From the NCBI GenBank assembly GCA_029553475.1, contig JAKPKV010000114.1, positions 62,001-126,000 of the forward strand: DNA of 64,000 nt. The letters run 5' to 3'. Positions 8,595-61,278 of the stretch are shown here, piece by piece. Each line of letters begins with the position of its first letter. Within the stretch, counting starts at the first letter, position 1. The notes under the pieces are model-generated. The model made no database searches, was not told the DNA's origin, and saw only the letters and a list, made by a program, of their open reading frames with translations. This DNA comes from Armatimonadota bacterium (GTDB taxonomy: Bacteria; Armatimonadota; Hebobacteria; CAIYQO01). The position numbers were made by a program, and so were the translations under genes.

Positions 8595-8933
8595 GGGAAA
8601 CCTCCGCTTGGTGGATATAATCGGTTAGACGCCGCGGTCACCAATTCGATGTGGGGTCTGCCATCGCCTTTCGGGGAGAAGTGGACAATGCATGCGCCGG
8701 ACTCCCGGGCGGGCGATCCCGATGCATGCTCTTTGGCAAATGGTTTCCGCTTTGGCGGGCTGTTCATCGGTGGGCTTCCGTCCCCCGGATTGAAATCCGG
8801 GGCTGGAGCCACAAAGTCCGCCCCCGCGGACTGGCCGGATCGGGCCGACCGACCGGATACCGAGCACAGCGGGAGTCATGTGTCAAAGAGCATCCATCGA
8901 GCCGACTCCGGGGAGACGCTCGCCCGCCCGCTC
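8595..8933. other. intergenic region with a dispersed repeat
   Basis: About 340 bases separate the 1110-residue gene from the second DtxR-type regulator, both on the minus strand. The part next to 8594 holds the ribosome-binding site of the large gene and a weak minus-strand TATA-like stretch near 8615. The middle holds the two-hairpin repeat described at 8783-8836. I see no gene; open frames here lack family motifs and ribosome-binding sites. Confidence 0.5.
8783..8836 (-). repeat. two-hairpin dispersed repeat, copy 1
   Basis: This element holds a palindrome (CCCCGGATT-GA-AATCCGGGG, 8783-8802), the conserved linker CTGGAGCCACAAA and a second hairpin (GTCCGC-CCCC-GCGGAC, 8816-8831) followed by TGGCC. 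A second copy in the opposite orientation lies at 55606-55660. Its second hairpin is GTCCAC-GCCG-GTGGAC, so one G-C pair has become an A-T pair with both sides changed. That pattern indicates selection or copying that keeps base pairing. Confidence 0.75.
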
Positions 8934-10763: not shown

Positions 10764-12941
10764 TTACCGTCCCATCCATCCCGTCGCCATCAACATCACC
10801 CGCAGCAGCGCGCCCGCGCCGAAGGAGATGATCAGCACGAAGGCGGCCATGCCGAGGGCGGTCCGCAGGCCGCGCTCCTTTTTCATCACCAGGAACTGGG
10901 CGATGCAGGGGAGGAACAGGGTGAAGGTGACGGCGGAGACCACCACCTGCACCGGCGAGAGCAGGCCGTCGGCGAACAGGTCCGCCAGCCCGGCCGCGCC
11001 GAAGTCGCGCCGGAAAAAGCCGGTGAGCAGGATGGTGCCGCCGGTGAATTTCAGCGCCGGGTTCTGCGCCACGTCGGCGGTGGTGGGCAGCCCGATCAGC
11101 GCCGCCAGCGGATCCAGCGCGCGCTCGATGGCGCCGAACAGGCCCGCGTGCGGCACGAACGCGAGCTGTCCGCCCTGCAGCGTGAGCGAGCCGAGCCAGA
11201 GCAAGACGCTGGCGAGGATGAAGAGCGGCAGCACCTCGATGAAGTACCATTCCAGCCGCGTGTAGGTCTTCACCAGCACGTTGCTGATGCGGGGCAGGCG
11301 CAGCGGGGGCAGCTCGATATAGAAGTGCGGCCGCTGCCCGGGCAGCACCTTCGCCGCCAGCAGCCCCACGGTGAGGAAGATGAGCACGATCACGGCGACG
11401 TAGATGCCCAGCGCCGCCGGCCCCACCTGGCTGAGCATGCCCAGAAACACGCCGCTCTGCGCCGAGCAGGGGATGGCCAGCGCCAGCAGCAGCGTGACGA
11501 TGATGCGCTCGCGCCGCGTCTCCAGCACGCGGGTGGTCATCGTCGCCATGGTGTCGCAGCCGAAACCGAGCACCAGCGGGATCACCGCGCGGCCGTTGAG
11601 GCCGATCTGCTTGAAGATGCGGTCAATCAGCATCGCCAGCCGCGGCAGGTAGCCGCTGTCTTCCATGAGGGAGAAGACCAGGAAAAATAACCCGACGATG
11701 GGCAGCACGATCGCCACCGCGTAGGTGATGCCCAGCGTGAAGATGCCATACTCACCGACGAAGAGGTTCGACCAGAGCGGCGGCAGCCATCCCTCGATGA
11801 CGCTGGTCAGCCAGGGATTGATGATGCCGCCGAAGAGATTTTCCTCCAGCAGCCCCACCAGCGTGCCCGCGCCGAACATGCCGACGAACTGGTAGATGCC
11901 GAAGTAGAGCACCAGCGCCACCACCGGCAGCCCGGCCAGCGGGTGCATGAGCAGTTGCGACAGCCACTCCAGCTTCGGCCGTTGCTGCTCGGCGGGCGCC
12001 TGCACCGTGCGCGCGATGATGTCATTCGCGACCGCCTGCCGCCGCAGCGCGATGACGATGCGCAATGGCTGGGCGAATTGCGCCGCCGTTTCCGCCACGA
12101 TGGCGCGCACCTGCGCCAGCGCCGCCGGCGAGGCCCGCGCGGCCACCAGCGCCTCGATCTCCGCGTCCCCCTGCAGCAGCAGCAGCGCCAGCGCCCGCTC
12201 GGCCAGCGCCGCCGGCCGCCCGATGAGCGCGATAATCGCCCCGACCGCCCGCTCGATCCGCGCGTCATACGTGATGCACACCCCGCCCACCGGAGTCGCG
12301 GAGTCGCCCTCCGCGCACACCGGGGCCGCGGAGTTGTACTCCGCACACTCCGCACGTGCGGTCATCGCCGCGCCCAGCGCCGCCCGCAGCTCTGCGATCC
12401 CGCGCCCGCTGGCGCCGGCGGTGCCCAGCACGGGGATGCCCAGGGCGCGGCCGAGCTCCGCCGCGTCGAAGCGGAAGCCCAGCTCCTCCGCTTCGTCCAG
12501 CATGTTCAGCGCCAGCGTCACCGGGAGATCCGCTTCCAGCAGTTGCAGCGTCATCGGCAGCATGCGCTGCAGATTTTTCGCGTCCACCACGTGCAGCACC
12601 TGGCGGGGGTGCTCCTCCAGCAGCAGGCGGCGGGCGACGGCTTCTTCCTCGGTGATGGGCAGCAGGGCATACATCCCCGGCGTATCCACCACCTCCACCG
12701 CGCAGCCGCCGACGGTTGTGTGCCCGCGCGAGACTTCCACCGTCGTGCCGGGGTAGTTGGACACGGTCACGTAGGCGCCGGTGAGGCGGTTGAAGATGAC
12801 GCTCTTGCCCACGTTCGGGCAGCCGATGATGGCGAGCAGCGGGTGCCCGCTGGCGCGCGCGGGTTCGGCGCACGGGCAGGGATCTTTCGCTGTGGGCGCT
12901 GTGGGCGCTGTGGGCCGCGGCAGCCGGGGCAGCGTAGTCAT
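10764..12941 (-). CDS. feoB: ferrous iron transport protein B
   Basis: A protein of 725 residues. The G domain has GCPNVGKSVIFNRLTG (G1, about residues 40-55), the TT of SNYPGTTVEV (G2), DTPGMY (G3) and NMLD (G4). The membrane domain carries two Gate-like regions and roughly eight to ten helices (IVLPIVGLFFLVFSLMEDSG; PLVLGFGCDTMATMTTR). It imports Fe2+ across the inner membrane. Two oddities are seen. The N-terminus has a PTAPTAPTA repeat. Between the G domain and the helical linker, at about residues 199-218, lie two tandem ten-residue units (CAEYNSAAPV, CAEGDSATPV) that come from a 30-bp DNA repeat. Its start overlaps the upstream regulator stop by four bases. No separate feoA is seen; FeoA-like domains are fused to the two regulators. 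Confidence 0.96.
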   Translation of the reverse strand: MTTLPRLPRPTAPTAPTAKDPCPCAEPARASGHPLLAIIGCPNVGKSVIFNRLTGAYVTVSNYPGTTVEVSRGHTTVGGCAVEVVDTPGMYALLPITEEEAVARRLLLEEHPRQVLHVVDAKNLQRMLPMTLQLLEADLPVTLALNMLDEAEELGFRFDAAELGRALGIPVLGTAGASGRGIAELRAALGAAMTARAECAEYNSAAPVCAEGDSATPVGGVCITYDARIERAVGAIIALIGRPAALAERALALLLLQGDAEIEALVAARASPAALAQVRAIVAETAAQFAQPLRIVIALRRQAVANDIIARTVQAPAEQQRPKLEWLSQLLMHPLAGLPVVALVLYFGIYQFVGMFGAGTLVGLLEENLFGGIINPWLTSVIEGWLPPLWSNLFVGEYGIFTLGITYAVAIVLPIVGLFFLVFSLMEDSGYLPRLAMLIDRIFKQIGLNGRAVIPLVLGFGCDTMATMTTRVLETRRERIIVTLLLALAIPCSAQSGVFLGMLSQVGPAALGIYVAVIVLIFLTVGLLAAKVLPGQRPHFYIELPPLRLPRISNVLVKTYTRLEWYFIEVLPLFILASVLLWLGSLTLQGGQLAFVPHAGLFGAIERALDPLAALIGLPTTADVAQNPALKFTGGTILLTGFFRRDFGAAGLADLFADGLLSPVQVVVSAVTFTLFLPCIAQFLVMKKERGLRTALGMAAFVLIISFGAGALLRVMLMATGWMGR
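12288..12347. repeat. two tandem 30-bp palindromic repeats inside feoB
   Basis: Two adjacent 30-base units (12288-12317 and 12318-12347) share the pattern CACCGG-G-CGCGGAGT---CTCCGC-CA. Each holds a small palindrome, GCGGAGT-TGT-ACTCCGC in the second unit. The same sequence occurs at 24197-24256 and twice, inverted, at 55657-55768. Here the length is a multiple of three and the reading frame of feoB is kept. Confidence 0.85.
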
Positions 12942-23083: not shown

Positions 23084-24187
23084 ATGGCGAATGTGCGGTT
23101 GGGGATTCTCGGCGTCGGCGGTTTTGGACGGTTCTGCCTGGAGCAGTACCGGCGCATGCTCGGCGTGCGGGTGACGGCCATCGCCGGCACCCGCCCGGAG
23201 AAATATGCCGCCCTCGCGCGCCAGTACGACATCCCCTACGCCTTCACCGATTGGCGCACGCTGGTGACGCATCCGGAGGTGGATATCGTCCACCTCGCCA
23301 CCCCGCCCGACCTGCGCGCCGCCCCCGCGCTGGCCGCCATCGCCGCGGGCAAGCACGTCTGGTGCGAGAAGCCGCTGGCCCTCACGCTGGCCGATGCCGA
23401 CGCCATGCTGGCGGCCGCCGACCAGCGTGGCGTGCGGGTGGGCATCAACTTCGTCATGCGCTACAGCCAGCATTATGATTTGCTGCGCACGCTGGTGCGC
23501 GAGGCGCTGTTCGGCGCGCCGCAGCGGCTGCTCTTTGAAAATCACGCCGCCGACCTCCCCCCCGACCACTGGTTCTGGGATCCCGCGCGCAGCGGCGCGA
23601 TCCCCGTCGAGCACGGCGTGCATTTCTTCGATATCTTCGCCTCCATCCTCGGCGCGGGGCGGCTGCGCTGGGCGGACCGCACCTGCCGCCCCAACGGCGT
23701 GGAGGACAAGTGGCAGATCGTGCTGCAGTACGGCGCGCAGGTGCTGGGATCGTTTTATCATGCCTTCGACCTGCCAGCGCCGCTGGAATCCACCCGCGCG
23801 ACGCTGCACTGCACGCGGGGCGTCATCTGCCTTGACGGATGGATTCCCGAACGGCTGGAGTTGAACGGGCTGGTGAACACGGAGGCGCTCGCGCGCCTCG
23901 CCGCGCTGCTGCCGGATGCCGGCATCACCACGCAGGCGCTGGGCGGCGGCCCCTGGCGGGCGAACGGCGAGCCGGTGGCGGCCACCACGCTGGCGCGCGC
24001 GCAGCTCTTCACCGCGGAAAAAACCCTCGCGTATGGCCAGGCGGTGCGCGCCGCGCTGGCTGATTTCATCGCCTGGACGGAGCATCCCACCCACCATCCC
24101 CGCGTCACCGGCGCGGACGGCCGCGCGGCGCTGGCGATGGCGGTGCAGGCGCGCGCGCTGGCGCGCGCGAACGCTGCCGCGCCCTGA
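23084..24187 (+). CDS. Gfo/Idh/MocA-family oxidoreductase
   Basis: A protein of 367 residues. The NAD(P)-binding N-terminus is RLGILGVGGFGRFCLEQYRR. It is followed by VDIVHLATPPDLRAAPALAA and the catalytic-region motif GKHVWCEKPLALTLADADAM, where EKP is the family hallmark. The C-terminal half holds the substrate-binding sheet (GSFYHAFDLPAP). It probably oxidises or reduces a sugar or cyclitol in the cytosol; the substrate is unknown. GAGGGAG stands before the ATG at 23084. A TACAAT box lies at 23062-23067 but no convincing -35 is seen. It follows the second parS and is unrelated in function to parAB. Confidence 0.9.
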   Translation: MANVRLGILGVGGFGRFCLEQYRRMLGVRVTAIAGTRPEKYAALARQYDIPYAFTDWRTLVTHPEVDIVHLATPPDLRAAPALAAIAAGKHVWCEKPLALTLADADAMLAAADQRGVRVGINFVMRYSQHYDLLRTLVREALFGAPQRLLFENHAADLPPDHWFWDPARSGAIPVEHGVHFFDIFASILGAGRLRWADRTCRPNGVEDKWQIVLQYGAQVLGSFYHAFDLPAPLESTRATLHCTRGVICLDGWIPERLELNGLVNTEALARLAALLPDAGITTQALGGGPWRANGEPVAATTLARAQLFTAEKTLAYGQAVRAALADFIAWTEHPTHHPRVTGADGRAALAMAVQARALARANAAAP

Positions 24188-24196
24188 CGCATAAAC

Positions 24197-24256
24197 CCGC
24201 GGCGTTGCACTCCGTCCACACGGGGGCCGCGGCGTTGTACTCCGCAGCGACCGGAC
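24197..24256. repeat. two tandem copies of the 30-bp palindromic repeat
   Basis: Units at 24197-24226 and from 24227 share CCGCGGCGTTG-ACTCCG with a 30-base period. They match the units inside feoB (12288-12347) and near alaS (55657-55768). Here they lie between two convergent genes. The palindrome is worn in the first unit. Confidence 0.75.
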
Positions 24257-24292: not shown

Positions 24293-25039
24293 TTACGCGA
24301 GGAGCCATTCCAGCAGCGCCACCGTGCCCATGCCCAGCAGCAGCCAGCCGATGTGCCGCCATGCCTGATGCGGCGCCGGATGCCGGGGCAGCCGGGGGAG
24401 GAGCTGGGCGAGGGCGATGTAGAGGAAACCGCCGGCGGCGACCGCCAGCACGTAGGGCAGCAGCGGGGCCAGGGCGCGCAAGGCGCCGTAGGCGAGGAGC
24501 GCCCCGGCAAAGGTGGGCAGCCCGGAGAGGAGATTGAAGAGCACCGCCCGCCGCGGTGAATAACCGGACGCCAGCAGCACCCCCAGATCCCCCGCTTCAT
24601 GAAAGATCTCATGCAGGATGATCGCCAGCGCCGTGGTGACGCCCGCCGGAATGGCGACGAGGAAGGCGGCGGCGATCACCACCCCATCCACGAAATTATG
24701 CAGGGCATCGCCGATGAGGATGAGCGGACCGGCCGCCCGTGCCTCCCCACACCCGCCCCGGTGGCAGCGATGCCAGACCACCGCCTCCTCCAGCACGAAA
24801 AAGGCCACCACCCCGCCCAGCGTGGCGGCGAAGACGCCATCGGCCGGCGCCGCGGTCAGCGCGGCGGGCAGCACATCGAGAAACGTCGCCCCGAGCAGCG
24901 CGCCAATGGCGTAGCGCACCAACACGCCCGTCACCGCCTCCCGTGCCCGCGGCGGCAGCAGCAGGAAGCTGGCGATGAGCAGTATGGCCCCCGCGCTCGC
25001 CAGCAGGCAGAAGAGCAGAATGTAGATGAGAATCGGCAT
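24293..25039 (-). CDS. ZIP-family divalent metal transporter
   Basis: A protein of 248 residues with about eight membrane helices. The ZIP signature is LILIGDALHNFVDGVVIAAA in one helix and LAIILHEIFHEAGDLGVLL in the next, providing the His, Asn, Asp and Glu residues of the metal site. A short His/Cys loop (WHRCHRGGCGEA) lies before them. It imports or exports Zn2+ or a related metal across the inner membrane. It faces the oxidoreductase gene and has no clear operon partner. Metal specificity cannot be told from the sequence. Confidence 0.92.
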   Translation of the reverse strand: MPILIYILLFCLLASAGAILLIASFLLLPPRAREAVTGVLVRYAIGALLGATFLDVLPAALTAAPADGVFAATLGGVVAFFVLEEAVVWHRCHRGGCGEARAAGPLILIGDALHNFVDGVVIAAAFLVAIPAGVTTALAIILHEIFHEAGDLGVLLASGYSPRRAVLFNLLSGLPTFAGALLAYGALRALAPLLPYVLAVAAGGFLYIALAQLLPRLPRHPAPHQAWRHIGWLLLGMGTVALLEWLLA

Positions 25040-45814: not shown

Positions 45815-46255
45815 AAGGGCATCCGGCAACGAACCTGGCAGCAAGTTTGGAAGCCGACGCGGGTCGCGTAAGTACCTCCGAATATAGCACCCGGCTGTTG
45901 GTAGTGCGCCTCGCAGCGAAGCGGAGTGGCGCCGCCCCGGCTGTAGTCATCGCGCCTGCTGGATATAAGGGTGACATCATCCCATGCCCCCTGCCATCCT
46001 GGCGGAGACACCATCGCGCAGCGCCACTCCGCTTCGCTGCGAGGCGCACTACCAACAGCCGGGTGCTCCGCTGACCATCCCGGTACGGGGGACCGTTGCC
46101 CCCAAAACTCCTCTGCGCGCTCCGCGGCCTCCGCGGTGAACAACACCGGCGCAGCGCCGCTTTCCCTATCTGTACGGTATAATGAAGAGGAGAAGCCCGC
46201 ACGGTCCTGTCCAGACCAATAGCGCGAACCACAAGCGATACTGGAGGGAGCAATC
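45815..46255. other. 441-base gap with a large inverted repeat and a TATAAT box
   Basis: The gap contains the 46-bp inverted repeat at 45887-46066. A TATAAT at 46178-46183 lies about 75 bases before the prepilin gene at 46256, without a clear -35. No gene is seen; open frames inside the repeat look the same on both strands and reflect the repeat itself. Confidence 0.55.
45887..46066. repeat. perfect 46-bp inverted repeat with an 88-base loop
   Basis: The left arm (45887-45932) and right arm (46021-46066) are exact reverse complements over 46 bases. The arms include GCACCCGGCTGTTGGTAGTG and CTCGCAGCGAAGCGGAGTG. The loop shows partial complementarity of its own. The exactness argues for recent insertion or gene conversion. 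No transposase gene is present, so it would be a non-autonomous element. Confidence 0.9.
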
Positions 46256-55411: not shown

Positions 55412-55761
55412 ACGAACCTGCCCCGGCGCATTTGGCCGTGCCCCGCCCCGCTACCGTTCACCTACGCCCGCGCCGTGTGGGGGAGCCGTCTCGCCCTGCC
55501 GCTCTCGTTCCTCACCACCCTCCGGAGCGCGGACATCCTGTCCGCCCGTCCCCTCCCTACCGAGGGGAGGGGGGCCGACACCAGCGCCGATATGAACGCG
55601 GTACCCGGCCAGTCCACGCCGGTGGACTTCGTGGCTCCAGCCCCGGATTGAAATCCGGGGTAAACTGGGGCCGCGGAGTTGTACTCCGCACGAGTTTGTA
55701 CGCTCTTTGTTCAACGACGGGGTGAGGGCACGCGTGCGGAGTACAACTCCGCGGCCCCAGT
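55412..55761. other. 350-base gap packed with repeats
   Basis: From the left it holds a small palindrome (GCGGACATCCTGTCCGC near 55528), a G/C-run, the two-hairpin repeat copy 2 (55606-55660) and the 36-bp inverted repeat (55657-55768). No gene is seen. The neighbouring genes are both on the minus strand, so this is the 3' side of alaS and the 5' side of the release-factor-like gene. Confidence 0.6.
55606..55660 (+). repeat. two-hairpin dispersed repeat, copy 2
   Basis: This is the second copy of the element at 8783-8836, in opposite orientation. It reads GGCCAGTCC then hairpin GTCCAC-GCCG-GTGGAC (55612-55627), linker TTCGTGGCTCCAG and palindrome CCCCGGATT-GA-AATCCGGGG (55641-55660). One base pair of the first hairpin differs from copy 1 with both sides changed. 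Confidence 0.75.
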
Positions 55762-55768
55762 TTACCCC
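55657..55768. repeat. perfect 36-bp inverted repeat over the alaS stop codon
   Basis: The arms at 55657-55692 and 55733-55768 are exact reverse complements around a 40-base loop. Each arm contains the 30-bp repeat unit found in feoB and at 24197, including GCGGAGT-TGT-ACTCCGC. The right arm includes the last codons and stop of alaS, so the repeat supplies the end of that gene. Confidence 0.92.
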
Positions 55769-58398
55769 CCGATCATCGCCCGCGCTTTCCCAAGCGCCTC
55801 CGGAATCTTCCCCGCGTCTTTGCCGCCCGCCTGGGCGAAGTCGGGGCGGCCGCCGCCGCCGCCGCCGGCGAGCTTCGCCATCTCGCGCACGAGCGCGCCG
55901 GCGTTGACGCGGCCGGTATGGTCGCGCTTCACCTTCACCGCAAACAGCGCCTTGCCATCGGTGGCGGAGGCGAGGACGATCACGTCGGCGACATCCTGCC
56001 CCAGGTATTCGTCCGCCAGGCTGCCCAGCGTGGCGGCGTCGAGGCCGTCGAGGGCGGAGATGAGCACGCGCAGGCCGGCGATCTCTTCCGCCTTCGGCCC
56101 CGCCGCCCCGCCGCCCGCCGCGGCCTTCACCTTCAGCTCGTTGATGCGCGCTTCCTGTTCGCGAATCGTCTTCTGCAGGCCCTCCACGCGGGCCAGGACT
56201 TCGTCACCCGGCGCCTTCAGCGCCAGCGCCAGCTCGCGCACGATGCCCGCCTGCTCGCGCGCCCAGGCGGCGGCTTTGCGCCCGGTCACCGCCTCGATGC
56301 GGCGGATGCCCGCGGCGACGGAGGACTCGGCGATGATCGCGAAGAAGCCCGCCTGCCCGGTGCGGTCGAGGTGCGTGCCGCCGCAGAGCTCGCGGCTGAA
56401 GGTGACGTCGCGGTCGCCGCCGATATTCACCGTACGCACCCACGCGCCGTACTTCTCGCCGAAGAGCGCGGTGTAGCCCGCTTTGCGCGCTTCCTCCAGC
56501 GTCATGTCGCGGATGACCACCGGCTCGTCGTCGAGGATCTTGCCGTAGACCAGCTCTTCCACCTGGCGGATCTCCTCGACGGTGAGCGCCCGCGGGTGGC
56601 TGAAGTCGAAGCGGAGATAATCCTCCTCCACTAGCGACCCCGCCTGCGTGGCGTGTTCGCCCAGCACCCGGTGCAGCGCCCAGTGCAGCAGGTGGGTGCT
56701 GGAGTGCGCGCGGCGGATGGCCTGCCGGCGGGCGCTGTCCACCGCCGCCGTCACGGTGTGGCGCGGGCCGGGCTCGAACTCCTCGTGCCCCTCCAGCGCG
56801 ACCGTATGCAGCACGTGGCCGAATTTGTCCTTTTGCGCGTCCACCACCGGCAGCGCCACGCCGTCGAAGCGCAGGGTGCCGGTGTCGGTGCACTGCCCGC
56901 CGGAAGTAGCGTAGAACGGCGTCGTGTCCAGCACCACGGTGGCGTAGGTGCGGTCGGCGTTCGCCGCAAAGTGCAGCAGCGTCGCCTCCGTCTCCGTCGT
57001 CACGTAGCCGGTGAAGGCGGTGGCCGGCACCTCGGCGCCGAGCATAGCAGCCGCTTCATACCCGAATTTCCCGCCGGCGCGGGCGCGGGCGCGGGCGGCG
57101 TCCATGGCAGCGGTGAAGCCGGCCTCGTCAATGGCCAGTCCCGCCTCCAGCGCCGTCTCCGCCGTCAGCTCCCGCGGGAAGCCGTAGGTGTCATACAGGG
57201 TGAAGACGTCGGCGCCGTTCAGCGCCGTCGCGCCGGCGGCCTTCGCCTGGCCGATGAGCGCGGCCAGCAGCTCTTCGCCGCGCTCCAGCGTGTCGGCGAA
57301 GCGCTCCTCCTCCGCGCGCAGCGTGTCGGCGATGAAGCGCGCGTTGTCGCGCAGCTCGTGATAATGCCCGCCCATCACGCCATCCAGCGTGGGCACCAGT
57401 TGCCAGAGGAAGGGCGCATGGAGGCCCAGCGCGCGGCCGAAGCGGAAGGCGCGGCGGATGATGCGGCGCGCCACGTAGCCGCGCTTACTGTTGGAGGGCA
57501 GCACGCCGTCGGCGATCATGAACGCCGCGCAGCGCAGGTGGTCGGCGATCACGCGCAGCGCCACCGTGCCGGCGGCGTCAGTCTTCTCCAGCTTCGCGAG
57601 GGTCATCGTCTCGATGATGAGCGGGCTGAGCAGGTCGGTGGCGAAATTCGTCGGCACGTCCTGCACCAGGCTGGCGATGCGCTCGAGGCCGGCGCCGGTG
57701 TCAATGCCCGGCGCGGGCAGCGGCCGGTATGCGCCGCCCTGATAATTGAACTGCTGGAAGACGTGGTTCCAGAATTCGACCCAGCGGTCGCAGCCGCAGG
57801 CGGGCGAGGTGCAGTCCGGCCCGCAGGCGAGGTGTTCGCCGCGATCGTAATGCATCTCCGAGCACGGCCCGCACGGCCCGCTGTCGCCCACCGGCCCCCA
57901 CCAGTTCTCTTTCTTGCTCAGCGGGATGATCCGCGCGTCCGGCACGCCGATCTCCAGCCAGAGCTGCTTGGCCTCCAGGTCTTCCCGGTACGGCTCGCCC
58001 GGCTTCGGCTTGTAGTAGGTCACCCACACGCGCTCGGGGTCGAGCCCCAGCCCGCCCTCGCTCTGCGGCAGCGTGGAGAACTCCCACCCCCAGCGCAGCG
58101 TCTCCCGCTTAAAATAGTCGCCGAAGCTGAAGTTGCCCAGCATCTCGAAGAAGGTGTGATGGCGCGCGGTATGGCCGACGTTGTCCAGATCGTCGGTGCG
58201 GGCGCATTTCTGCACGGTGGCCACGCTGCCGTACGGCGGCTCCACCTCGCGGCGGAACCAGGGGACGAACTGCTGCATCCCCGCCGTGGTGAACAGCGTG
58301 GTCGGATCCTCGGGCACCAGCGAGCTGCTCGGCAGCACCGTATGCCCCCGCTCCGCGAAGAAGCGCAAAAACGCCGCGCGAATCTCATTTCCGGTCAT
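55762..58398 (-). CDS. alaS: alanyl-tRNA synthetase
   Basis: A protein of 878 residues, normal length. The N-terminal class II core has FLRFFAERGHTVLPSSSLVP, FTTAGMQQFVPWF and NVGHTARHHTFFEMLGNFSF. Next come EFWNHVFQQFNYQ and GIDTGAGLERIASLVQDVP. The editing domain has RRAHSSTHLLHWALHRVLGE and RELCGGTHLDRTGQAGFFAI with the zinc-site CGGTH. The C-terminal domain ends GGGGGRPDFAQAGGKDAGKI. A Cys-rich insert (HLACGPDCTSPACGCDRWVE) lies in the catalytic domain and may bind metal. It is a single gene with an extended -10 promoter. Its stop codon lies in the 36-bp repeat. Confidence 0.97.
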   Translation of the reverse strand: MTGNEIRAAFLRFFAERGHTVLPSSSLVPEDPTTLFTTAGMQQFVPWFRREVEPPYGSVATVQKCARTDDLDNVGHTARHHTFFEMLGNFSFGDYFKRETLRWGWEFSTLPQSEGGLGLDPERVWVTYYKPKPGEPYREDLEAKQLWLEIGVPDARIIPLSKKENWWGPVGDSGPCGPCSEMHYDRGEHLACGPDCTSPACGCDRWVEFWNHVFQQFNYQGGAYRPLPAPGIDTGAGLERIASLVQDVPTNFATDLLSPLIIETMTLAKLEKTDAAGTVALRVIADHLRCAAFMIADGVLPSNSKRGYVARRIIRRAFRFGRALGLHAPFLWQLVPTLDGVMGGHYHELRDNARFIADTLRAEEERFADTLERGEELLAALIGQAKAAGATALNGADVFTLYDTYGFPRELTAETALEAGLAIDEAGFTAAMDAARARARAGGKFGYEAAAMLGAEVPATAFTGYVTTETEATLLHFAANADRTYATVVLDTTPFYATSGGQCTDTGTLRFDGVALPVVDAQKDKFGHVLHTVALEGHEEFEPGPRHTVTAAVDSARRQAIRRAHSSTHLLHWALHRVLGEHATQAGSLVEEDYLRFDFSHPRALTVEEIRQVEELVYGKILDDEPVVIRDMTLEEARKAGYTALFGEKYGAWVRTVNIGGDRDVTFSRELCGGTHLDRTGQAGFFAIIAESSVAAGIRRIEAVTGRKAAAWAREQAGIVRELALALKAPGDEVLARVEGLQKTIREQEARINELKVKAAAGGGAAGPKAEEIAGLRVLISALDGLDAATLGSLADEYLGQDVADVIVLASATDGKALFAVKVKRDHTGRVNAGALVREMAKLAGGGGGGRPDFAQAGGKDAGKIPEALGKARAMIGG

Positions 58399-58508: not shown

Positions 58509-59603
58509 TCAGGGCGTGGCGAATATCTCCAGCTCGCGCAGGCCGTACATGTGCTGGGTGCTGTTGTGGGCGCCGCTGGAGATGACCTGATAGAAGATGG
58601 CGACATCGCGGTAGGGGGTGGCGTCGGAGACCGGCGTCTCGAAGAACTTCAGGTGGCCGTCACTGGCGGCGGGCGGGTCTTTGGGCACGTTGCCGGGGGC
58701 GATGGTGCGCCAGGCTTGCTGGCCGGGGTAGATGCGCCCGCGCAGCTCGACGCGGCAGTTGCCGTAGTGCTTCACGCCACCCTCGTTGGGGAAGACCTTG
58801 AAGGATTTGACCACCATGGGCTGGTTTAGCTGCTCGTAGCCGATATAGATCTGCCCGAGCGCGTTGGGGTTGCCGCCCGGCACCTCCATGCGCATCACCG
58901 CGCTGCTGCTGGTGACGATGCCGTCATACATCAGCGCCAGGCCACCGGTGCCCCACCAGACATTGATGTTGTCCCAGTAGCGGAAGGCGTTGGCGTCGGC
59001 GGGGGTGAGGCGGAAGGGGGTGCCGGCGCCGGTGGCGGGCTTCATGTAGATGCCCTCGCGCCCGAGGACCTCGATCGGCTGCCCCTTGATGACGAGCGCG
59101 CGCGAGGAGCCGTCCATCATGCCCAGCGTCACCGTCTCCTGGTGGCGGGCGGCGATGCTCTCGTTCAGGGTGTTCTCGCGGATGGTGTAGTCACCGTCCA
59201 TTTTCGTCTTGGTCAGGTCGGCCACGGCCAGGCAGTTCACCGGGCTGCTGATATAGGCCATCGGCTTCCCCAGCACCTCGCCGTTGAAGCCGTATTCGGG
59301 CTTGCCGTTGTCACCCTTGCCCGTCAGCGAGGGGCAATCGTAGATGGAGCCGCCGTTATACTCGGCCAGCGCGTGCGCCCACGGCTTGCCGGTGTCCTGG
59401 GGAAATTGCTCCTGATTATCCTGCACGAACATCTGCATGGCCACCACTATCTGCCGCACGTTGCTGAGGCAGGCTGTGGCGCGCGCCTTTTCGCGGGCGC
59501 GGGCGAAGACGGGGAAAAGGATCGCCGCCAGGATCGCGATAATAGCGATGACGACGAGCAACTCGATGAGGGTGAAGCCCCTCGGTGCGTTATTTCCGCG
59601 CAT
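58509..59603 (-). CDS. prepilin-type protein, H-X9-DG-like, with long C-terminal domain
   Basis: A protein of 364 residues. The prepilin N-terminus is [20 protein letters not shown] with Glu at +5, followed by [20 protein letters not shown], the usual helix. Then [20 protein letters not shown] and [20 protein letters not shown], a variant of the H-X9-DG motif, appear. The last 180 residues look like a beta-sandwich ([52 protein letters not shown]), probably discoidin-like. AAAGGAG lies seven bases before the ATG at 59603. It starts 35 bases after the stop of the next prepilin and is probably co-transcribed. Confidence 0.9.
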
Positions 59604-59638: not shown

Positions 59639-61063
59639 CTAGTTCACCCCATACTTGCGGGCCAGGTAGCCCATCACCCCCAGCATCTCGCCGCTGGAAA
59701 GGCAACGGTCCTTGTAGACGATGATCTCGGCCACATCGAAAGCGGTCGAACGCGCGTGTTGGTTGGCGTCGCGGGTGGAGCCGATTACCCCGAAGCGGAA
59801 GTTGTTCGGGTTGGGATTCATCGCGACTTCCACCGCGCTGTTCATGCGCGCGAAGGCGGGCAGATTGGCCTCGCGATGGGTGGAGGAAAAGCCGACGATC
59901 TGCCATTTGTCGCGCAGCGCGGCGTAGGCGCCGTAGGTAGTGATGACGTTCTGGTCGGTATTGGTGCCGTCGCGGGTGATGCGCACCTGCAGCCCGTCGG
60001 AGGTGCCCCAGAAGAGGCCGTTGCGATACGCGTGGTTCAGTACACCCAGCATGCAGCCGCTGCCGATGCTGGTGGTGACGGGCCGCACCGCCATCGCCAC
60101 GCTCTGCACCACCTCATCCGCGCCGTAGGCGGTGCCGCCCGCGTTCGGGAACATCAGCGCCCCACCGTTGTTGCCGCTGGCGGTGAAGCGCAGCGCGGGC
60201 TTGCCGTTGCTGGAGTCGGCCAGGTAAGTGGGGGGCGTGCGATAGCGCGTGGTGCCGTCATCCGAGTTGCCTAGTTGGGCGAAATGGCGCACGGTGCGCG
60301 TCGTCATCGGCGTCGGGCTGACGTAGCGCGCCTCGGTGAGGAACGCGGCCGGCGGCGGGCTGACCCATTGATCGATCTGATCGCCGTTCGCCTTGGCCGG
60401 CGTGCCGTCGCTTTTCAGCAACGCGCCCGGCGCGTCGGCGGCAAACCAGAAGGTGATGTCCTCGGGGATGCGCAGGCTGGAGCCGGCGGTTTTGCGCAGC
60501 TCGGCATGACCGTCAACGAAGGCGACGGCGAAGCTGCCGTTATGGCGAAAGGCATAGTCGCTCGGCATCGCCTTGCCGGTGGGGCCGCGCCAGGGCATCA
60601 GGCGCGAAATAAGGTTGGGCCGCCAGCCGGCGGGGCGGTCGGCGTCGGCGACCAATCCCCACCCCTGCGCGTTCCAGTCCGCCACCAGCGCCTCCTCGGT
60701 GGGGGCGAAGACATCGCCCAGCGCGGTGGGCGGGTTGCCCAGCGGGTCGGAATACCCGTAGGTGTTGGTGACGCCCTGGGTGACGTCGCTCGGGCATTTC
60801 ATCACGCCGGCGGGCAGCCCCAGCCCCTCCCACACCGTCTTGGAGGCGGGAAAAGTTTCCCCGTTGTCCTGCACGTTCATCAGGATGGCGGTGGAAATCT
60901 GCCGCACGTTGTTCAGGCAGGAGGTGGCGCGGGCCTTCTCGCGAGCTTTGTTAAAGACCGGAAACAGAATGGCGGCGAGAATGGCGATGATCGCGATCAC
61001 CACCAGCAGTTCGATGAGGGTGAAGCCCGCGCAGCGGGTCCCCCTGCTCCGCAGATGAGACAT
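59639..61063 (-). CDS. prepilin-type protein with C-terminal LamG-like lectin domain
   Basis: A protein of 474 residues. The prepilin motif is [20 protein letters not shown], then [20 protein letters not shown]. An H-X9-DG motif is present as [18 protein letters not shown] near residue 185. The C-terminal 270 residues look like a concanavalin A/LamG fold ([20 protein letters not shown]; final [20 protein letters not shown] and [12 protein letters not shown]). AAAGGAG stands before the ATG at 61063. A pseudopilus or surface fibre carrying a lectin-like domain could bind glycans; this is an inference. A 25-bp operator-like site lies 51-75 bases upstream. Confidence 0.9.
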
Positions 61064-61113: not shown

Positions 61114-61278
61114 TTCCGGGAATCACATGTTTTCGGAAGTCAGCGGGCGAAAATGCTGCTGCCCGGCGCTCCTCAGGGAGTGAAAGGGGGAATCTGGGGG
61201 AGGAAAATGCTCACTATGCTTGACAAAATCAGGCCTATGCTGCGTATACTTATTTCCGAAAACATGTGATTTCCGGAA
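61114..61278. promoter_or_regulatory. pair of inverted 25-bp operator-like sites
   Basis: A 25-base sequence at 61114-61138 (TTCCGGGAATCACATGTTTT then CGGAA) occurs inverted at 61254-61278 with a single change. Each site has TTCCG and CGGAA at its ends, as in a repressor half-site pair. The spacing of 140 bases would allow DNA looping. The left site lies just upstream of the prepilin gene; the right site follows the plus-strand promoter at 61220-61250. Confidence 0.65.
61220..61250 (+). promoter_or_regulatory. plus-strand promoter TTGACA-19-TATACT
   Basis: TTGACA (61220-61225) and TATACT (61245-61250) are separated by 19 bases, which is long but usable. No plus-strand gene begins within the next 900 bases, so it may make an untranslated RNA that crosses the candidate origin, or be controlled by the adjacent operator sites. 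Confidence 0.45.

Follow-up and report, generated by a model that had tools for sequence, protein, structure and literature searches.

The 64,000-nucleotide stretch of Armatimonadota DNA analysed here (the window) raises the question of how repetitive, palindromic DNA came to lie in frame within a gene for a conserved iron transporter. The host gene, on the minus strand at 10764-12941, encodes a 725-residue ferrous iron transporter B (FeoB), recognisable from the Pfam FeoB_N, Gate, FeoB_C and FeoB_Cyto domains and from a TIGR00437 (feoB) score of 424 bits (cut-off 316). The initial annotation had described two tandem 30-bp palindromic units encoding ten-residue repeats, and these are real: they lie head-to-tail as direct repeats at 12289-12318 and 12319-12348 and together spell 20 residues, AEYNSAAPVC / AEGDSATPVG (an example of the peptide predicted from the insert is AECAEYNSAAPVCAEGDSATPVGG). 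The two units share a common layout, but only the second is close to the consensus derived below. That 3′ unit, ACCGGGGCC GCGGAGTTGTACTCCGC ACA (12319-12347, plus strand), has an exact core and scores 48.5 bits against our matrix. The 5′ unit, ACCGGAGTCGCGGAGTCGCCCTCCGCGCAC (also on the plus strand, opposite to feoB), has decayed to 79% identity with the intact one, with two mismatches in its hairpin core, and falls below the matrix threshold.

Within the protein, the extra residues sit between the FeoB_N G domain (residues 36-188) and FeoB_Cyto (residues 225-314). Alignment with homologues, which the initial annotation had suggested as a check, supports insertion, as the sister species and almost every other homologue lack the stretch. 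The linker comprises 48 residues here, 33 in the sister species, and 24-28 in 74 of the 77 relatives recovered; one relative (L047) has a long linker that is unrelated to the insert. The sister’s feoB is 89% identical and colinear with ours over its whole length, and at the insert point our gene is 45 nt longer than this closest relative’s, not the 60 nt that two full units would add. An AlphaFold model of FeoB residues 1-330 gives pLDDT values below 50 for insert residues 202-217 and mostly above 90 for the flanking G domain and helical domain, which agrees with the insert forming a disordered loop that the protein seemingly tolerates. Near its N-terminus (12885-12920), the same gene also has a small coding repeat, TAP/TA in triplicate, with no counterpart in the sister gene.

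The repeat extends far beyond feoB. Its consensus, ACYGGGGCC-GCGGAG-TTGYA-CTCCGC-A, has a 9-nt head, ACYGGGGCC, in front of the hairpin GCGGAG-TTGYA-CTCCGC; in the approximately 1.08 Mb surrounding all exact copies, conservation is strong from -9 to +17 and drops markedly beyond these positions. The exact core, GCGGAGTNNNACTCCGC, occurs 97-98 times in the genome (a 5.27-Mb draft of 194 contigs) and 0 times in the reversed control, and with one mismatch allowed the counts are 139 and 2. A 30-position matrix finds 115 copies in the 1.08 Mb and none in the reversed sequence; as the matrix scan and gene calls cover only the surroundings of exact copies, some degraded copies in other regions could have escaped detection. 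Two core matches that had two mismatches and no head (L146:4859 and L174:13481) were dropped as chance. Because the DNA recurs between genes throughout the genome, both chance similarity and a purely protein-level repeat can be rejected. Among 291 genomes of the phylum searched with at most one mismatch, the full motif was found in two, with 115 copies here and 5 in a congener; it was absent from a genome of the same family.

These copies are strongly depleted from genes. By our home-made, hexamer-based gene caller, coding sequence makes up 85% of the sample, yet at most 7 of the 115 copies overlap a called gene (binomial p below 1e-60). Convergent gaps are enriched, accounting for 26 of 70 loci vs. 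104 of 729 gaps, and divergent gaps are scarce (6 of 70 loci vs. 93 of 729 gaps). The genome-wide search and listing of genic copies proposed in the initial annotation yielded three interior cases, each flanked on either side by strong coding signal: feoB, the nickel insertion protein gene larC (L161; Pfam, 498 bits) and a methylpurine-DNA glycosylase gene (L196; Pfam, 199 bits). Left out of this count were a copy that extends a C-terminus (L163), one at an N-terminus with a possibly misplaced start (L201) and two short called ORFs. The interior copies sit at loops or domain junctions, and the host proteins keep their family match. They use three different reading frames (AEYNS, RGVALRS and RSTTP) and both orientations, which rules out a preferred frame. 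The idea of a “protein-compatible mobile element” thus holds in that the repeat is found in frame within three genes, but it should be taken modestly: genic copies are few, and being open in all six frames makes a weak case for a special adaptation when 32% of random 30-mers of similar GC content are equally free of stops.

The arrangement of neighbouring copies is informative about the unit that spreads. Among the 36 pairs of copies within 400 bp of each other, an inverted, heads-outward arrangement is seen in 31 and a heads-inward one in none. The heads-outward pairs are mostly exactly 98-99 bp long although their loop sequences clearly differ (two short inverted pairs measure 75 bp), and single-strand folds of such pairs give one long hairpin, with z of about -10 to -13. 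The two arms of a pair match at both variable bases above chance (Fisher p = 0.039 and 0.004). Roughly half of all copies are single ends or head-to-tail tandems, and single units tend to carry more mismatches than paired ones (1.03 vs. 0.61 per unit, p = 0.056, a trend); better conservation of pairs than of singles is what REPINs would be expected to show. Tandems with a spacing of about 30 bp occur at 12298/12328 and 24199/24229 in the window and at L162, L168 and L172; the 3′ unit is usually the better conserved.

Both further copies that had been placed in gaps of the window, at 24197 and 55657, are present between genes. The former is a degraded plus-strand tandem of two units at 24190-24247 (hairpins at 24199-24215 and 24229-24245), lying between genes that end at 24187 and start at 24293. 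The latter is a complete 98-bp inverted pair at 55664-55761, heads outward, with hairpins at 55673-55689 (plus) and 55736-55752 (minus); its 97% inverted repeat folds as a single hairpin of -44.1 kcal/mol (z = -10.3). The Rfam matches at this 98-bp element (MIR1437 and MIR3454) are far below gathering thresholds and merely reflect the long hairpin. The right boundary of the pair coincides exactly with the stop codon of alaS, the alanine-tRNA ligase gene on the minus strand at 55762-58398 (TIGR00344, 815 bits), where the flank TTACCCC is conserved in the sister species. Conservation of this flank shows the head to be the element’s outer end.

Other palindromes lie close to many copies. Within 26 nt upstream of 38 of the 97 exact copies there is an arm of a different palindrome: CTCCGC 19 times (about 3.5 expected), ATCCGGGG 10 times (about 0.6) and ATCGGGAC 9 times (about 0.2). 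Most of the 13 copies seen of one such neighbour, GCGTCCCGATGAAATCGGGACGC, themselves have ACYGGGGCC as their head, in some cases altered, so the tag is common to two different hairpins. Several additional repeats were noted in passing. A second palindromic repeat, CCCCGGATTGAAATCCGGGG, has inverted copies at 8783-8838 and 55605-55660 in the window and is flanked by a conserved CTCCAG; a related 16-mer, with about 20 matches in the sampled sequence, always falls outside called genes. At 45886-46067, between genes, is a 50-bp inverted repeat (98%) with an 82-nt spacer, a related piece of which sits in the sister’s gap beside alaS; another inverted repeat, at 61114-61278, has 30-nt arms (90%) separated by 105 nt and is unusually AT-rich for this genome. 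At L172:15725-15976 and L192:5376-5659, loops of the 98-bp type are interrupted by a second palindromic element with ends like GTCGTCACGCTGTACCGTG; the one at L172 is bordered on both sides by CAGATA, which may be the target duplication left by a nested mobile element. Segments at 59280-59590 and 60850-61030 of the window match dozens of places, at 71-91% identity, in each of two relatives (G001 and G002), which points to a large paralogous gene family.

Comparison with one congener provides empty sites. The sister species does not carry the element at three comparable intergenic sites (55664 in the window, L172:3912 and L195:14280), and its feoB and glycosylase orthologues do not carry the inserts. 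These empty sites indicate that the repeat spread mainly in this lineage after the species split. The net gains are all shorter than the repeat inserted: 45 nt for the two units in feoB, 12 nt in the glycosylase gene (the amount by which the sister’s, without the stretch, is shorter) and about 15-21 nt in larC, where relatives are approximately 4-7 residues shorter at the insert, with a difference of 5 for the closest solved one (12bi), and the sister’s gene is broken at the insert point in its draft assembly. Gains smaller than the element do not fit plain insertion without loss of host sequence. They may reflect later trimming selected for frame, given that there are three cases in fast-changing linkers, or they may be a property of the insertion.

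What kind of element is this? The initial annotation had likened it to Rickettsia palindromic elements (RPEs), and at the level of behaviour the likeness stands: unrelated genes (feoB, larC and the methylpurine-DNA glycosylase gene) have received palindromic inserts in frame that are absent in orthologues. The lineages are distant, RPE-1 is described as longer (PMC3733652), and our element has a coding unit of about 30 bp and is mostly intergenic; repetitive extragenic palindromes (REPs) and REPINs are the closer class. RPE-4 and RPE-6 have in fact been counted among REPs (PMC3733652). The 27-bp unit has the size (approximately 20-50 nt), palindromy, high copy number and mostly intergenic location of a REP, and the pairs, like REPINs (PMC3116915), consist of short inverted palindromes at fixed spacing that form one hairpin around a variable loop, accompanied by single remnants and mostly extragenic. 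The head, however, is ACYGGGGCC rather than GTAG, and no cognate RAYT gene lies beside a copy. Of the known REP tags (GTAG/GTGG or CGTC), GTAG is found near 6 and CGTC near 1 of the 97 cores. Atypical REPs without GT[AG]G do exist in some subclasses (PMC6006769), and with TnpA-REP (RAYT) and IS200/IS605 single-strand transposition (PMC8266576, PMC6006769) the repeat shares a short tag 5′ of a perfect small-loop hairpin, as in group 3 REPs. The likeliest mobiliser here would be a Y1 single-strand transposase.

In-frame REPs have been catalogued before: they are commonly grouped, code for 20-30 residues and often lie in DNA repair genes (PMC3733652). Our feoB insert, with two units and 20 residues, together with the DNA-glycosylase insert, makes a close fit to that description. 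REPs also prefer unidirectional and convergent gaps, and their tag is conserved while the hairpin varies (PMC3733652). Our repeat thus resembles the GTAG and CGTC REPs found inside ORFs in its in-frame copies in unrelated genes, DNA repair included, in a tag that stays constant across different hairpins and in its gap preference; it differs in its tag and in having few intragenic copies (three clear ones). The element is therefore REPIN-like with a different tag and is not filed as a GTAG or CGTC REP. The phenomenon of in-frame REPs is already known (PMC3733652), and what differs here is the tag and the missing RAYT partner, with no new category of element. None of the papers searched mentions both Armatimonadetes and repetitive extragenic palindromic sequences.

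The movement of REPINs is attributed to RAYTs, which are related to the Y1 transposases of IS200/IS605, enzymes that act on single-stranded hairpins (PMC3116915, PMC8266576, PMC6006769). The genome holds ten Y1_Tnp genes, of which two (L143 and L144) are RAYTs above the NCBIfam cut-off and a third (L142) falls below it, at 69 bits vs. 80. None of the ten loci is flanked by the feoB palindrome within up to 1.5 kb on each side, as a REPtron would be, with the caveat that a copy could be missed in a draft genome. The two RAYT genes adjoin palindromes of their own: L144 (G000:C159:5563-8721) and L143 (G000:C176:119388-122657) are flanked by GGAACGCCCTCCGTGGCGTTCC and GCCGGTGTCCTCACCGGC, and the palindromes near L143 and L144 occur in 7 and 13 copies, respectively, in the sample with at most two mismatches. 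These apparently constitute separate REP-RAYT systems in the same genome, and the resident RAYTs were rejected as the cognate enzyme. By analogy with known REPINs, the 98-bp pairs would move as single-stranded hairpins, through the action in trans of a Y1 (HUH) transposase. The genic copies would then be rare landings that survived by being short, stop-free, frame-restored and located in permissive loops, and would be tolerated passengers rather than selected parts. We give a probability of roughly 80% to this reading, in which the feoB repeat is a copy of a lineage-specific REP/REPIN-like element, mobilised in trans by a Y1 enzyme, with its genic copies merely tolerated.

The 98-bp pair could instead be a MITE belonging to a conventional DDE transposon whose terminal inverted repeats are 26-28 bp long, the singles being broken ends; fixed length, long terminal inverted repeats and a variable interior are MITE traits as well. 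We consider this unlikely: no target-site duplications are visible in the flanks of the 98-bp pairs that we inspected, single ends and head-to-tail tandems make up about half of the copies, each end is a perfect hairpin for which DDE ends have no need, and no larger element with these ends appeared among the stretches read. A different kind of explanation is that the repeats in feoB, larC and the glycosylase gene were retained for a role in the protein or mRNA, as a flexible linker or an mRNA hairpin. Their frame is kept, their positions are linkers, and REPs elsewhere in bacteria have often been suggested to act in RNA (PMC3733652). Yet their occurrence in three unrelated proteins, three frames and both orientations argues for neutrality, as does their absence from close relatives, and the older feoB unit has decayed; a retained function is thus quite improbable. 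Poorest of all is the prospect that the genic copies are assembly or binning artefacts. Repeats do break assemblies, and this is a draft of 194 contigs, in which repeat-mediated misjoins might place palindromes into genes. Each genic copy, however, is flanked by matching halves of the same conserved protein with the frame kept, the feoB contig is 329 kb long and the gene colinear with the sister’s throughout, and three misjoins that all preserve frame are hard to credit.

Beyond the REPIN-like reading, we can offer a more speculative proposal, which we hold doubtful: that the head ACYGGGGCC-GCG, carried by at least two hairpins, marks a third tag superfamily of REP-like elements, whose mobiliser is not a flanking RAYT and whose entry replaces about 12-15 nt of host DNA, often beside an existing hairpin. 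If true, replacement entry would explain both the sub-length gains of all three genes and the head-to-tail stacking. The sister’s empty sites make the insertion chemistry, clean or by replacement, testable by sequence once further strains become available. The findings extend the entry of REP-like elements into coding sequence to another phylum and to an unusual tag, and they illustrate a plain route by which selfish DNA can add new disordered loops to conserved proteins.
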